Positions 44,119 to 50,387 of a stretch of 64,000 bases of DNA are shown here, piece by piece. A program made the translations under genes and the position numbers. Under the pieces are notes generated by a model. That model was not told the origin of the DNA and made no database searches. It was given only the letters and a program-made list of their open reading frames with translations. The DNA comes from Paracoccaceae bacterium (GTDB lineage Bacteria; Pseudomonadota; Alphaproteobacteria; Rhodobacterales; Rhodobacteraceae): contig SDAL01000001.1 of NCBI GenBank assembly GCA_004153385.1, forward strand, positions 558,001-622,000. Reading direction: 5' to 3'. Position 1 is the stretch's first letter. Each line of letters opens with the position of its first letter.

Positions 44119-46773
44119 ATGGCCAGTCTGAACGAGATCCGTTCCACCTTCCTGAACTACTTCGAGCGTAACGGCCACAAGGTCGTGCCCAGCTCACCGC
44201 TGGTTCCGCGCAACGATCCGACTTTAATGTTTGTAAACTCCGGTATGGTGCAATTCAAAAATTGCTTCACCGGTGTTGAAAAGCGCGATTACAATCGTGC
44301 GACCACGGCGCAGAAATGCGTGCGCGCCGGTGGCAAACACAACGATCTCGACAATGTCGGATACACGGCCCGTCACCACACATTTTTCGAAATGATGGGG
44401 AATTTCTCTTTCGGGGATTACTTCAAAGAGCAGGCAATCACACATGCCTGGACCCTGCTGACCAAAGATTTCGGCATCCCGCAGGAAAAGCTTCTGGTGA
44501 CCGTCTATCACACCGATGACGAGGCCGCCAATCTTTGGAAAAAGATCGCCGGCCTGACCGACGACCGGATCATCCGTATTCCGACGTCCGACAACTTCTG
44601 GCAGATGGGGCCGACCGGCCCCTGTGGGCCATGTTCGGAGATTTTCTACGATCACGGCCCCGATATCTGGGGCGGTCCGCCCGGCAGCCCCGAGGAAGAC
44701 GGCGACCGGTTCATCGAAATCTGGAACATCGTTTTCATGCAAAACGAACAGTTCGAAGATGGCTCGATGCGCGCGCTTGATATGCAGTCGATCGATACCG
44801 GCATGGGGCTGGAACGGATCGGGGCCTTGTTGCAAGGCAAGCATGATAACTACGACACCGACCTGATGCGTCATCTGATCGAGGCGTCCGCCAATGTCAC
44901 TTCGGTCGATCCCGATGGACCGGGCAAAGTGCATCATCGTGTGATCGCCGATCACTTGCGCTCGACGGCGTTTTTGATTGCCGATGGCGTGATGCCGTCC
45001 AATGACGGGCGTGGCTATGTTTTGCGCCGGATCATGCGCCGTGCGATGCGTCATGCGCATATGCTGGGCACGAAAGATCCGGTGATGTTCAAGCTGGTGC
45101 CTGCACTGGTGCGCGAAATGGGGGCGGCCTATGGCGAGCTGGGGCGCGCGCAATCGCTGATCGAAGAAACCTTGAAGCTGGAAGAAACCCGGTTCCGCCA
45201 AACGCTGGACCGTGGGTTGAAGCTGCTTGACGAGGAACTTTCGGGCCTGCCGGATGGGGCGGAACTGCCCGGCCGTGCGGCATTCAAGCTGTATGACACT
45301 TATGGCTTTCCGCTGGACCTGACGCAGGATGCCTTGCGCGAAAAGGGCCGCAGCGTTGAAACCGATGGCTTTGACGCCGCCATGGCGGAACAGAAGGCCT
45401 TGGCGCGCGCGTCGTGGTCCGGCTCTGGCGAGAGTGCCGATAGCACGCTTTGGTTCGATCTTGCCCAGAAACATGGCGTGACAGAGTTTCTGGGCTATGA
45501 CACCGAAACTGTTGAAGGGCAGATTACGGCCGTGATCACCGATGGCGCGGAAGTGTCACAAAGCACAGGCCAGTGTCAGATCGTGGTCAATCAAACGCCG
45601 TTTTATGCGGAATCGGGCGGTCAGGTCGGGGATACCGGCGTGATTGTCACCGAAACCGGAACAGCCAAAATCACCGATACGAAAAAAGTGGCGGGGGTGT
45701 TTATCCATTTCGCCGAAGTGACCGAAGGCACGATCACGCGCGGGCAGGGGGCGCGTCTGGTTGTGGACCATGCGCGCCGCTCGGCCATTCGGGCCAATCA
45801 CTCTGCCACACACCTTCTGCACGAAGCGCTGCGCCGTGCCTTGGGCGATCATGTGGCACAGCGTGGCTCGCTCAATGCCGAAGACCGGCTGCGGTTCGAT
45901 TTCAGCCACACCAAGGCCATGACCCCAGACGAACTGTCCAAGGTCGAGGCGGAGGTGAACGAATTTATCCGCCAGAATTCCGGTGTGGACACGCGCATAA
46001 TGACCCCCGACGAGGCCCGCGGTCTTGGTGCGCAGGCACTTTTCGGCGAAAAATACGGTGATGAGGTACGTGTGGTGTCGATGGGCACGCTTGAAGGTAC
46101 GAAAAAAGGTGCCACTGGCGATGTCTATTCGCTGGAGCTTTGCGGCGGCACACATGTGGCGCGTACGGGCGATATAGGCGCGTTTGTGGCGCTTGGCGAT
46201 AGTGCATCGGCCTCCGGTGTGCGCCGGTTCGAGGCGCTGACGGGGCAGGTCGCGCTGGACTACCTCAAGGCGCAGGACATGCGGTTGCAAGACGTCGCGC
46301 AGGTTTTGAAAACATCGTCTGCAGACGTGGTCGAGCGGGTCAAGTCCTTGGCCGACGAGCGTAAGGCGCTCGCCAACGAGGTGGCACAGCTGCGTCGTGA
46401 GCTGGCGATGGGATCGGGGCCTGCAGGGGGTGCCGATGCGATCGAGATCAACGGGATCAAGCTGATTGCGCAGGCGATTTCCGGCGTAACCGGTAAGGAT
46501 CTGCCACCCCTGGTTGACGAGTTGAAGGCAAAAGTCGGCTCTGGCGCAGTACTGGTTGTGGCCGACACCGGTGGCAAGGCGGCTGTGGCCGCTGGTGTTA
46601 CCTCCGATTTGACCGGCACGATTTCTGCGGTTGATATGGTGCGTGCGGCAGCGCAGGCATTGGGTGGCAAAGGCGGTGGCGGACGAGCCGATATGGCACA
46701 GGCCGGTGGTGCTGATCCGTCCAAGTCAGACGATGCGATAGCCGCAGTCAAAACCCTGATCGAAGGAGTATAA
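44119..46773 (+). CDS. alaS: Alanyl-tRNA synthetase
   Basis: AlaRS, 884 residues, charges tRNA-Ala. It starts [47 protein letters not shown] (class II motif 1 region), and includes the editing domain text [42 protein letters not shown] with the zinc-type His and the later [15 protein letters not shown]. The C-terminal C-Ala domain closes with [16 protein letters not shown] and the acidic tail. The small DUF1330 gene follows 3 bases after the stop with an AAGGAG in front. Confidence 0.99.
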
Positions 46774-46776
46774 ACG

Positions 46777-47067
46777 ATGCCTGGTGCGTATTGGATTGCA
46801 CATGTAACGGTGACTGATGCCGAAGCCTACGGTAAATATGCCGAAGGGGCAGGGCCTGCGATTGCCAAATTCGGTGGCAAGTTTCTGGCACGTGGCACGG
46901 CCTATAAACAGCTTGAAGGCAATGACCGCGCCCGCAATGTGGTGGCGTTTTTCCCCAGCCTTCAGGCGGCTGAAGATTGCTATAACAGCCCCGAGTATCA
47001 GGCCGCGCTCCAACATGCGATTGGTGCAGCCGAGCGTGATCTGGTCATTGTCGAGGCGATGGAATAA
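46777..47067 (+). CDS. DUF1330 family protein
   Basis: A 96-residue protein starting MPGAYWIAHVTVTDAEAYGKYAEGAGPAIAKFGGKFLARG, then NVVAFFPSLQAAEDCYNSPEYQAAL. This is the DUF1330 pattern: a dimeric ferredoxin-like alpha/beta-barrel fold, proposed to be a heme or small-molecule handling protein, with no proven activity. AAGGAG precedes the ATG, and it is 3 bases after alaS, so it is likely in one transcript ending at the terminator 47075. Confidence 0.9.
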   Translation: MPGAYWIAHVTVTDAEAYGKYAEGAGPAIAKFGGKFLARGTAYKQLEGNDRARNVVAFFPSLQAAEDCYNSPEYQAALQHAIGAAERDLVIVEAME

Positions 47068-47074
47068 GATTGGA

Positions 47075-47101
47075 AAGGCGCCCCCCGCGGGCGCCTTTTT
47101 T
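47075..47101 (+). terminator. Terminator of the alaS-DUF1330 unit
   Basis: AAGGCGCCC (47075-47083) pairs with GGGCGCCTT (47089-47097) over the loop CCCGC, followed by T run 47096-47101. Separates the alaS unit from cysS. Confidence 0.9.
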
Positions 47102-47231
47102 CATCAATACGTCCTATGGCTGAACGCTGTCACACAGGCGCGGGTTGCAAGCAGCTAAAGATGGTGAACTCCGCTGTGTCATAAGATGGTTTGGGCTTCA
47201 CAATGATGGATCCGCGCGTTAAGACGGGCCC

Positions 47232-47276
47232 ATGACCCAGACTGCAACCAACATGATTTGCTGCATTACCGGCTGA
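47232..47276 (+). CDS. Cys-Cys leader peptide upstream of cysS
   Basis: ATG ACC CAG ACT GCA ACC AAC ATG ATT TGC TGC ATT ACC GGC TGA gives MTQTATNMICCITG, 14 residues with two adjacent Cys codons at positions 10-11. It lies 90 bases before cysS. A weak ribosome-like GACGGG precedes the ATG, and the stop codon lies within the first stem of the attenuator described at 47268. Reading two Cys codons in a row is what a cysteine-charge sensor would need. Expression is not proven. Confidence 0.6.
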   Translation: MTQTATNMICCITG

Positions 47277-47340
47277 CATCCGTCAGGCGGTCCGGTCATG
47301 CTTTCCCAAGCTCTGCCCCGGGGACCCGCTGACGGGGAGC
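47268..47340 (+). promoter_or_regulatory. Candidate cysteine attenuator between leader peptide and cysS
   Basis: Three alternative stems can form. Stem A: CTGAC (47273-47277, covers the leader stop) with GTCAG (47282-47286), extended by ACCG/CGGT. Stem B: CCGTCAG (47280-47286) with CTGACGG (47329-47335), 7 perfect pairs. Stem C: GCT and CCCCG (47310-47320) with CGGGG and AGC (47333-47340). Stem B excludes A and C. No T run follows, so it may act on translation or through Rho rather than as an intrinsic terminator. Confidence 0.5.
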
Positions 47341-47365
47341 CTATGGCAAGGGAGCCTTGAGACCC

Positions 47366-48757
47366 ATGACACGGACAACGATCCGATTGCGCAACAGCCT
47401 CAGCCGCAAGGTGGAGCCTTTTGTTCCGATTGATCCTGAAAACCTGCGGCTGTATCTGTGTGGGCCGACGGTCTATGACCGCGCGCATCTGGGCAATGCC
47501 CGCCCCGTCGTGGTCTTTGATGTCCTGAACCGGTTGTTGCGGCATGTTTATGGGGCCCACCAGGTTACGTATGTACGCAATTTTACCGATGTAGATGACA
47601 AGATCAACGCTACGGCTTTGGCGCGAAAAAATGCAGGCGCCGACAGCAGCCTTGAGGCGCTGATCCGCGAGCGGACCGAAGAAACCATACGTTGGTATCA
47701 CGAAGATATGGATGCCTTGGGCGCTGATCGCCCCGATCACGAGCCCCGCGCCACGGATTACATCGATGCGATGATCCGTATGATCGCAGGCCTGATCGAG
47801 AGCGGCCATGCCTACGCCGCCCAAGGGCATGTGATGTTCCGGGTACGGTCATTTGCGGAATATGGAAAGCTTTCGGGGCGTTCTGTCGATGATATGATCG
47901 CAGGCGCGCGCGTCGAGGTCGCCCCCTACAAAGAAGATCCGATGGATTTCGTGATGTGGAAACCTTCGGATGACGAACTTCCCGGATGGGATAGCCCTTG
48001 GGGACGTGGACGGCCCGGCTGGCATATCGAGTGCTCGGCCATGAGTTATGAATTATTTGGCGACAGCTTTGATATTCATGGCGGCGGTATTGATTTGCAG
48101 TTTCCACATCATGAAAACGAGATGGCCCAAAGCTGCTGCGCCCATCCGCAGGGGGATTTCGCGCGCTACTGGCTTCACAACGAGATGTTGCAGGTCGAAG
48201 GCAAGAAAATGTCCAAATCCTTGGGCAACTTCTTTACCGTTCGTGATCTTCTTGATCAGGGCATCCCCGGTGAGGTGATCCGGTTTGTGTTTTTGCAGAC
48301 CCATTATGCCAAACCGATGGATTGGACTGCCGAGAAGGCACGCCAGGCCGAGGTGACGTTGCGCAAGTGGCATGCGCTTACGGCGGGCATCGAACCCGCC
48401 GCAAGCGCCGCGCCGTCGGTGGTTGATGCGCTGGCGGATGACCTGAACACTGCAGGCGCGATTGCGGCATTGCATGCGTTACGCGATCCGGCCGTGCTAA
48501 AGGCATCGGCGCATCTGCTAGGATTATTGCAGACGGATATGGCTGGATGGGCACAAACCGCAGATGTCGATTTAACCATGTGGGCCGACAAGCTTGCGGA
48601 CCTGCGCACGGCTGCCATGCAAACCAAGGATTTTGCGCCAGTCGATGCGTTGAAGCAGGCGTTGGTTGCGGCGGGGGTCGAGGTGCGCATGTCGAAAGCA
48701 GGCGTCGAACTGTTGCCGGGCGCGGGGTTCGATCCCAGCCAGTTACCTGAACTGTAA
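47366..48757 (+). CDS. cysS: Cysteinyl-tRNA synthetase
   Basis: CysRS, 463 residues, charges tRNA-Cys. The ATG at 47366 is used; a TTG at 47357 is closer to the AGGGAG site. It carries [26 protein letters not shown] with the HIGH-type HLGN and zinc Cys, [31 protein letters not shown], and KMSKSLGNF (KMSKS). The upstream leader peptide and stems suggest its level responds to cysteine supply. cimA follows 10 bases later. Confidence 0.97.
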
Positions 48758-48767
48758 GGAGAAGAGT

Positions 48768-50387
48768 TTGTCCAAAGAGCGTCTTTATCTATACGACACG
48801 ACGCTGCGCGATGGCCAGCAGACACAGGGTGTGCAATTTTCGGTCTCGGAGAAGATCACGATTGCCAAGGCACTGGACGAGATCGGGATAGATTATATCG
48901 AAGGCGGTTGGCCGGGTGCCAATCCCACAGACAGTGATTTTTTCGATGTGCGGCCTGAAACGCGTGCGACCTTCACCGCCTTTGGCATGACAAAGCGCAC
49001 GGGACGTTCCGCGGAAAACGACGAGGTGCTGGCAGGGGTCATGAATGCGCGCACTCCTGCGGTGTGTCTGGTGGGCAAGACCCATGATTTTCATGTCACT
49101 GCGGCGCTTGGAATCACGACACAGGAAAATATCGAAAATATTCGTGCGTCAGTAGCGCATATGGTTGCCCAAGGTCGCGAAGCGCTGTTCGATGCCGAGC
49201 ATTTTTTTGACGGCTATAAGGCCAACCCGGAATATGCGCTGGCATGTATTCGGGCGGCAATGGAAGCCGGCGCACGTTGGGTGGTGTTATGTGATACCAA
49301 TGGCGGCAGTTTGCCCGACGAAATTTCGCATATTGTGGGCGAGTTGATCGCAAGCGGTTTGTCAGGCGCCCGTTTGGGGATCCACTGTCATGACGATATG
49401 GGCATGGCCGTGGCGGGGTCTTTGGCGGCGGTGGAGGCCGGTGTACGCCAGATACAAGGCACGCTTAACGGCTTGGGCGAACGTTGCGGCAATGCCAATC
49501 TGATCTCGATTATCCCGACCTTATTGTTGAAACCGGCCTATTCAAACCGTTTTGAGACGCAAGTGACTACGGCCGCGCTGGTGCATCTGACGGCTGTATC
49601 GCGCAAGCTTGACGATCTTCTGAACCGTGTACCATCACGGGCTGCACCCTATGTTGGTGCCTCTGCCTTTACCCATAAGGCAGGGCTTCATGCGAGCGCG
49701 ATTTTGAAGGACCCATCGACCTACGAACATATCGATCCTGAATGTGTGGGCAACACGCGCCTGATCCCGATGTCCAATCAGGCAGGCCAATCGAATTTGC
49801 GCGCGCGGCTTCTGGATATGGGGCTGACGGTCGAAAAGGGTGATCCACGCCTGACCCGGATTTTGGATGAGGTGAAGTTACGCGAGGATGCAGGCTATGC
49901 CTATGACGGGGCGCAGGCGAGTTTCGAGCTGGTGGCGCGGCGGATCTTGTCCGAACTGCCGGCATTTTTCAGCGTTGAACGATACCGTGTGGTGATAGAG
50001 CGCCGTCATGACGGACATAAAATGGCAAGCAGCTCCGAGGCGGTCGTGGTGCTGAACGTGGGCGGTGAGCGGATGCTTTCGGTATCGGAAAGCTGGGACG
50101 AGGCCGGCAGTGATCGCGGGCCGGTCAATGCGCTTTGGCAGGCGCTTGCCCGCGATTTAGGCCCCTATCAGCGGTATATCGAAGATATGAAGCTGGTCGA
50201 TTTCCGTGTTCGTATCACCGGCGGCGGGACGGCGGCGGTCACCCGCGTGGTGATCGATTCAGAAGACGGTACAGGCCAGCGCTGGTCCACCGTCGGGGTG
50301 AATGCCAATCTTGTGGATGCCTCTTTTGAAGCGCTTTTGGAGGCAATCGAATGGAAACTTCTGCGCGACGGGGTGGTGCCGCGATGA
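48768..50387 (+). CDS. cimA: Citramalate synthase
   Basis: A 539-residue enzyme that joins pyruvate and acetyl-CoA to citramalate, an isoleucine route. The start is TTG at 48768 with AAGGAG 6 bases upstream; ATG starts further upstream lie in the end of cysS. It opens LSKERLYLYDTTLRDGQQTQGVQFSVSEK, has GGWPGANPTDSDFFD, and the LeuA-dimer regulatory end (LELVDFRVRI-like text near TGGGTAAVTRVVIDSEDG). The pattern DTTLRDGQQTQGV identifies it as CimA or (R)-citramalate type rather than isopropylmalate synthase LeuA. Close to cysS, probably co-transcribed. Confidence 0.93.
   Translation: MSKERLYLYDTTLRDGQQTQGVQFSVSEKITIAKALDEIGIDYIEGGWPGANPTDSDFFDVRPETRATFTAFGMTKRTGRSAENDEVLAGVMNARTPAVCLVGKTHDFHVTAALGITTQENIENIRASVAHMVAQGREALFDAEHFFDGYKANPEYALACIRAAMEAGARWVVLCDTNGGSLPDEISHIVGELIASGLSGARLGIHCHDDMGMAVAGSLAAVEAGVRQIQGTLNGLGERCGNANLISIIPTLLLKPAYSNRFETQVTTAALVHLTAVSRKLDDLLNRVPSRAAPYVGASAFTHKAGLHASAILKDPSTYEHIDPECVGNTRLIPMSNQAGQSNLRARLLDMGLTVEKGDPRLTRILDEVKLREDAGYAYDGAQASFELVARRILSELPAFFSVERYRVVIERRHDGHKMASSSEAVVVLNVGGERMLSVSESWDEAGSDRGPVNALWQALARDLGPYQRYIEDMKLVDFRVRITGGGTAAVTRVVIDSEDGTGQRWSTVGVNANLVDASFEALLEAIEWKLLRDGVVPR

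Follow-up and report, generated by a model that had tools for sequence, protein, structure and literature searches.

A cysteine-codon leader upstream of cysS in Rhodobacteraceae, a candidate ribosome-stalling attenuator

Introduction

What is the role of a short open reading frame (ORF) with two adjacent cysteine codons that lies in front of cysS, the gene encoding cysteine--tRNA ligase, in a member of the Rhodobacteraceae? The locus belongs to a stretch of 64,000 nucleotides of a Paracoccaceae bacterium (assembly GCA_004153385.1, contig SDAL01000001.1, positions 558,001 to 622,000 of the forward strand), referred to here as the window, whose numbering is used throughout. A first-pass annotation interpreted the ORF and the stems around it as a translation attenuator sensing charged tRNA-Cys and knew of no established element of this kind for cysS in Rhodobacterales. 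This claim of novelty has to be withdrawn, as a 2021 prediction, the uORFC-8-2 motif, had already described 145 examples found exclusively upstream of Rhodobacterales cysS, with two tandem Cys codons, two stems and a U-run, and had proposed attenuation (PMC8632094).

As far as the text of that paper describes the motif, the window shares with it the location upstream of cysS in Rhodobacterales and the AUG-started short ORF with two tandem Cys codons, and the mechanism considered, ribosome-mediated attenuation by charged tRNA-Cys, is the same. They differ in that the Cys codons of the published motif are usually codons 14-15 and a U run ends its consensus, whereas those of the window are codons 10-11 of 14 and no U-run is present. 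Isoleucine, cimA, citramalate, leaderless and antiterminator are absent from the text of PMC8632094 (a statement on the text, as distinct from the figure and supplements), and no other paper reporting cysS leader attenuation in Rhodobacterales was found among those judged by title and the start of the abstract. The basic element had already been predicted; what is added here is a proposed dual Cys/Ile reading, a probable leaderless start, strands 3 and 4 and a likely bypass promoter. As judged from sequence comparisons, the element is probably (roughly 0.8) a ribosome-stalling attenuator of cysS of the uORFC-8-2 kind.

The leader ORF and its conservation in the family

The features of the locus are collected in Table 1. 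The leader reads ATG ACC CAG ACT GCA ACC AAC ATG ATT TGC TGC ATT ACC GGC TGA, with the tandem Cys codons at 47259-47264, exactly as the first-pass annotation had it (14 codons, two adjacent Cys codons, end at 47276); that annotation was silent on the Ile codons, the leaderless start and the second promoter of the relatives. An alternative in-frame start of cysS, TTG, is found at 47357. No Rfam match, riboswitch or T-box, was obtained at E up to 1 for positions 46000-49500 of the window and six relatives. Farther upstream, 3' of the DUF1330 gene, a GC-rich inverted repeat with six T (47077-47101) was noticed by eye, which looks a far better terminator than anything after the cysS leader; it is absent from the list given by the scan of that strand.

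Table 1. Features of the cysS locus in the numbering of the window
Feature	Coordinates	Strand	Basis or remark
alaS	44119-46773		window
Small DUF1330 gene, between alaS and the cysS leader	46777-47067		PF07045, E 1.3e-35
Promoter P1 (putative): TTCACA (47197-47202), 17 nt, TAAGAC (47220-47225)	47197..47225	+	sequence; base frequencies in 110 relatives
Leader ORF MTQTATNMICCITG	47232..47276	+	no Shine-Dalgarno, probably leaderless; sequence and relatives
Proposed sensing codons Ile-Cys-Cys-Ile (ATT TGC TGC ATT)	47256..47267	+	codons -6 to -3 from the end; statistics on 107 leaders
Strand 1, last leader codons and stop, CCGGCTGAC	47269..47277	+	pairing and covariation tests
Strand 2, proposed partner of strand 1 (off) or strand 3 (on)	47280..47290	+	CCGTCAG-g-CGG
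5' arm of hairpin over the cysS start	47290..47300	+	partner 47365-47376; minimum-energy fold of the window itself
Strand 3, CCGCTGACGG, forms 10 bp with strand 2 in the window; reads GCCCGC in relatives	47326..47335	+	sequence, covariation
cysS, cysteine--tRNA ligase	47366..48757	+	TIGR00435, 407.6 bits, cut-off 340
cimA, citramalate synthase, directly 3' of cysS	48759..50387	+	TIGR00977, 561 bits, cut-off 450; start approximate

A search with CysS gave matches in all 16 genus genomes and in 234 of the 248 family genomes. The 124 upstream regions compared come from 15 of the 16 genus genomes (G015, with only part of cysS at a contig end, was left out) and from 109 of the 233 matching genomes elsewhere in the family, which belong mostly to the upper part of the similarity ranking and do not constitute a random sample. 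A script found the leader in 110 of these 124 regions; three of them (L075, L086 and L107) were set aside as degenerate, leaving 107 leaders for the later statistics. Cys-rich ORFs missed by the script are present in L085, L088 and L108, and eleven regions are without an acceptable leader, including L038 and L110, which offer just 159 and 89 nt of upstream sequence; L038 shows no two-Cys leader.

Short Cys-rich ORFs (ATG start, 8-25 codons, at least two Cys) occur between -250 and -20 in 108 of 122 regions versus 4 of 122 in a control zone between -480 and -250. The leader has 13 or 14 codons in 101 of 110 cases and ends with TGA in 108, and its Cys codons are TGC (274) rather than TGT (18). 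The expectation that start, Cys codons and stop would be conserved upstream of cysS in other Rhodobacterales is borne out in this sample of the family.

A scan of the genome collection with the pattern of the leader end gave at least 119 stretches. Among the 80 matches listed, 63 sit 46-125 nt upstream of cysS and every one of them has an ATG that opens an ORF of 9-18 codons, while the other 17 comprise 12 from other taxa and five from Rhodobacterales records, namely L144, at a contig end and with a leader-like ORF, and L179, L200, L202 and L209, without a cysS match. In other alphaproteobacterial families, an ORF with at least two Cys was found in the 250-nt zone at 9 of 28 loci versus 6 of 112 control windows. 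Among those 28 loci, L277 and L262 are the only ones that by eye resemble the family design (Cys and Ile codons, cimA homolog adjacent), with short ORFs carrying Cys and Ile at -189..-141 (MSNAHTIFICPIICR) and -182..-116 (...FCIIDWIICDR) relative to cysS, suggesting that the design may extend beyond the family. A longer leader, MKSQTTIISSIICCIIISC, with seven Ile and starting 147 nt before the cysS match, is present in L297 and L298 and exceeds the length limit of the scripts.

Two mutually exclusive stems and their covariation

The window contains two stems with one strand in common: stem 1:2 joins CCGGCTGAC to GTCAGGCGG (47282-47290) with one mismatch, and stem 2:3 joins 47280-47290 to 47326-47335 through 10 pairs and one bulge. 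The mutually exclusive stems of the first-pass annotation are both present, and in the minimum-energy fold a third pairing closes over the cysS start (47290-47300 with 47365-47376). At the level of the family, strand 2 reads GUCA(n)GCGGG, strand 3 is GCCCGC about 45 nt further, and strand 4 is the stretch up to the cysS Shine-Dalgarno (SD).

Covariation was evaluated in a set of 93 sequences, the window plus one leader-bearing genome per genus. When arms were swapped between sequences, own arms paired better than swapped ones in stem 1:2 (z -7.2) as well as in stem 2:3 (z -6.7), with 0/1000 swaps in each case. The control pairs gave z 0.3 (tract with ribosome site), 0.5 (leader start with strand 3) and +5.7 (leader start with ribosome site), the last one evidencing that the swap statistic can move without a structure. 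At least five uninterrupted pairs in both helices are found in 85 of the 93 sequences. In a separate alignment, A1, of 49 rows hand-picked from 65 references, the covariation score was 0.146 versus 0.116 after shuffling for stem 1:2 and 0.131 versus 0.075 for stem 2:3 (0/500 shuffles each), and the outer pair of 2:3 was G-C in 17 rows, C-G in 15, G-U in 2 and unpaired in 15. L091 has an A in strand 2 that is matched by a U in strand 1 and another in strand 3.

The consensus given by RNAalifold was nearly empty (-0.44 kcal/mol, 3 pairs), perhaps because mutually exclusive stems offset each other, yet this result gives no support. On a cysS tree of 63 loci, a test with a small label set and few controls, same-branch changes that keep a pair were few, 4 over the eight pairs of 2:3, 5 over the nine of 1:2 and 2 over nine pairings of one control column, because strand 2 is almost invariant. 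The compensatory changes anticipated for the stems are evident as covariation of both in the permutation and shuffle tests, but few as tree-aware double changes and practically missing from the RNAalifold consensus.

For stem 3:4, examined in 90 sequences (rows with anchor gaps or odd spacing dropped, as also in the masking test below), three of four segment choices gave z -3.9 to -4.1 (0/1000) and the fourth -1.7 (49/1000), while an earlier choice gave -1.9 (31/1000), so that the result depends on the segment chosen; the local hairpin is scarcely more stable than shuffles (mean z -0.31). The single-sequence fold of the window is unexceptional (z -1.18, 27/200 shuffles as good); the evidence comes from conservation. 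A family-wide pairing between the pyrimidine tract and the cysS SD/start was considered and rejected for lack of covariation (z 0.3); it is kept only as the window's own hairpin.

A stalling model and the level of control

In the proposed mechanism, transcription from P1 would begin at the leader AUG, as the position of the promoter indicates. When charged tRNA-Cys is plentiful, the ribosome would complete the leader, strand 1 would pair with strand 2 and cysS expression would be kept low; under a shortage of charged tRNA, the ribosome would stall with codons -5 to -3 in the A site and cover strand 1, upon which strand 2 would pair with strand 3 and cysS and the following cimA would be switched on. 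A Cys codon stands at -5 in 85 and at -4 in 78 of the 107 leaders, and given the usual ribosome footprint a stall at -5 to -3 should mask strand 1 and leave strand 2. Two features characteristic of leader-peptide attenuators are found together at this locus, codons placed so that a stall masks one arm of the switch and two mutually exclusive conserved stems.

Stalling was simulated by masking a ribosome footprint of the usual size, which by construction leaves most of strand 1 unpaired; predicted pairs went from 5.5 to 1.5 in stem 1:2, from 1.5 to 3.1 in 2:3 and from 3.1 to 1.8 in 3:4 (n = 90). At least one pair of 3:4 is lost on stalling in 41 of the 90 sequences and two sequences gain. The predicted accessibility of the SD was no different between the free and the stalled state (0.42 vs 0.43, n = 90; 0.43 vs 0.41, n = 93). 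In the full-length RNA of the window 3:4 and 2:3 had 0.0 pairs each, free or stalled, and 2:3 was predicted only for transcripts that end with strand 3 (5.5 pairs in the free and 7.2 in the stalled state). In the window, formation of 2:3 would sequester the arm that could otherwise fold over the start codon of cysS, which makes translation control the more likely output there.

Taking the attenuator as given, the chances that translation is the level of control are about even. The geometry favours it, as strand 3 lies beyond any terminator point and stem 3:4 reaches the cysS ribosome site. As to the translation attenuator sensing Cys-tRNA postulated by the first-pass annotation, its sensing part is strongly supported across genera, with both stems covarying; its translational part is favoured by geometry, but predicted SD accessibility is unchanged.

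The explanation proposed in print, in which stem 1:2 and the U-rich tract form an intrinsic terminator and stalling at the Cys codons prevents termination (the published view of uORFC-8-2, according to the text of PMC8632094), is a serious possibility although well short of even odds. It accords with the probability of stem 1:2 in RNA ending at the tract, 0.74 free versus 0.27 stalled (n = 93; window 0.89 vs 0.00), and with the T found at +5 after the stem in 86% of the sequences bearing the second promoter-like block described below (P2) and 85% of those lacking it. Nevertheless, the tract begins 4-5 nt past the stem, and at least five T in eight occur in 36/73 P2-bearing but only 3/20 P2-lacking sequences (the 20 set by eye), the window (tract CCGGTCATGCTT) being among those that fail. 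As had been claimed from the sequence, no U run follows stem 1:2 in the window, where the tract CCGGTCATGCTTTCCC has just a late TTT. Moreover, strand 3 lies past the tract and is transcribed after it, so that its covariation with strand 2 would have no role in termination; selection on 2:3 argues against a pure intrinsic terminator. A further reading, in which the U-rich tract is simply the -35 element of P2, was rejected, because sequences without P2 retain the T at +5.

It is unlikely that Rho terminates transcription in the C/U-rich stretch that separates leader and cysS, with the stalled ribosome either blocking or permitting this. Such a mechanism would suit the window, which has no good U-run, and a Rho mechanism was suggested for actinobacterial Cys leaders (in the part of PMC1262725 that concerns them), but it needs neither stem 2:3 nor stem 3:4.

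A probable leaderless start and a likely second promoter

The spacing of P1 would put +1 on or beside the A of the leader ATG. The dinucleotide TA is located at -13/-12 or -12/-11 from this ATG in 100 of 107 leaders and in 0-6 of 107 at six shifted places; 15 of the 107 had several possible in-frame ATGs and the choice among them preferred TA at promoter distance, which slightly favours a leaderless reading. In the 110 sequences aligned on the leader ATG, TTGGC-like letters stand at -36..-32, position -1 is C (87%) or T (11%), and no Shine-Dalgarno precedes the ATG. From the position of the promoter it can be inferred that transcription starts at or within one base of the AUG and that the leader is probably leaderless.

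A second promoter-like block, P2 (TTTYCA-17 nt-TAAG with TGN ahead), a sequence match rather than a mapped promoter, lies between leader and cysS. Of the 107 leader-bearing regions, 86 score above the 99% background level for it, as do 7 of the 11 leader-lacking ones, which were outside the training set; in the leader-lacking L038, L098 and L110 the scores are 7.9-8.0 versus a threshold of 8.5 (L038 7.9), and L134 fails. P2 is likely a second promoter and would yield a cysS mRNA free of the leader. It was not found in the window nor in the relatives L002, L003 and L005 (scores -4.6 to 6.0), where the attenuator would therefore stand in series with the gene.

These frequencies would also fit an arrangement in which the blocks conserved between the leader and cysS serve solely as a second promoter, while the leader gives rise to a small RNA or peptide acting in trans, as S. 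meliloti trpL does. Such an arrangement is quite improbable, since 18 of the 93 sequences, the window included, are without P2 by score, yet stems 1:2 (z -3.7, 1/1000) and 2:3 (z -3.6, 0/1000) covary in them. That leader and stems arose by chance in intergenic DNA rich in GC, a view to which the ordinary fold of the window would lend itself, has a negligible probability in the face of the 108/122 versus 4/122 regions with Cys-rich ORFs and the 13-14 codons of 101/110 leaders.

Isoleucine codons and a possible link with cimA

The attenuator may respond to more than cysteine. In the 107 leaders Ile accounts for 406 of 1460 residues and Cys for 286, and Ile is present in all 107. Codons -5, -4 and -3 are Cys or Ile in 97, 103 and 103 of the 107 leaders (91-96%), and position -3 is Ile in 101. 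Of the 248 A/T-rich codons at -9..-6, 218 encode Ile, versus 178 of 821 in codons 2-20 of cysS, evidencing that low GC alone does not explain the Ile codons. A stall at -8 or -7 would, with the usual footprint, miss strand 1, and the Ile codons located there may have another role.

A cimA homolog (E up to 1e-8) lies 3' of cysS at 66 of 69 loci in the family and at 14 of the 28 from other families. Citramalate was reported to carry 80% of the isoleucine flux of Roseobacter denitrificans on pyruvate (as given in the part of PMC2749216 dealing with this flux), and literature joining cysS and cimA in a Cys/Ile-sensing sense was not found among the records judged by listing. Four cysS genes found without cimA (L292, L295 and L303, of one genus, and L094) have no convincing leader; upstream of L292, L295 and L303 only an element like GCGCTAAG or GCGCTAGA was seen close to cysS. 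A tight link between leader loss and cimA loss was rejected as a rule, because cimA is still present in 7 of the 8 leader-lacking regions that were followed downstream. It is proposed, tentatively and at slightly less than even odds, that the leader reads Cys and Ile on behalf of a two-gene operon, cysS for charging of tRNA-Cys and cimA for citramalate-dependent isoleucine synthesis, Ile sensing being suggested by codon positions and gene order.

Related systems and significance

The four-strand logic of 1:2 plus 3:4 versus 2:3 is like that of ermC-type translation attenuators, although ermC senses a drug. In reading several amino acids the leader would be like thrL and ilvL, which differ in having intrinsic terminators and in sensing amino acids other than Cys. 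Judged from the title of the report, the leaderless polycysteine short ORFs of mycobacteria are likewise Cys-responsive operon attenuators, in another phylum (Canestrari 2020), and Cys leaders had been predicted earlier for actinobacterial cys operons (in the relevant part of PMC1262725). Among the Alphaproteobacteria, the attenuator trpL/rnTrpL of S. meliloti has a leader of 14 codons, with the RNA starting at its ATG; as described in the portion of PMC7298713 that treats it, it differs in serving trp genes and in acting by transcription attenuation.

A classic feedback loop arises when a synthetase gene responds to how well its own tRNA is charged, and the one proposed here is conserved across a large bacterial family. 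The map of promoter and strands makes the published prediction directly testable and puts intrinsic termination in question. If the Ile codons count, a single 14-codon leader would tie cysteine charging to isoleucine synthesis, an unusual pairing.
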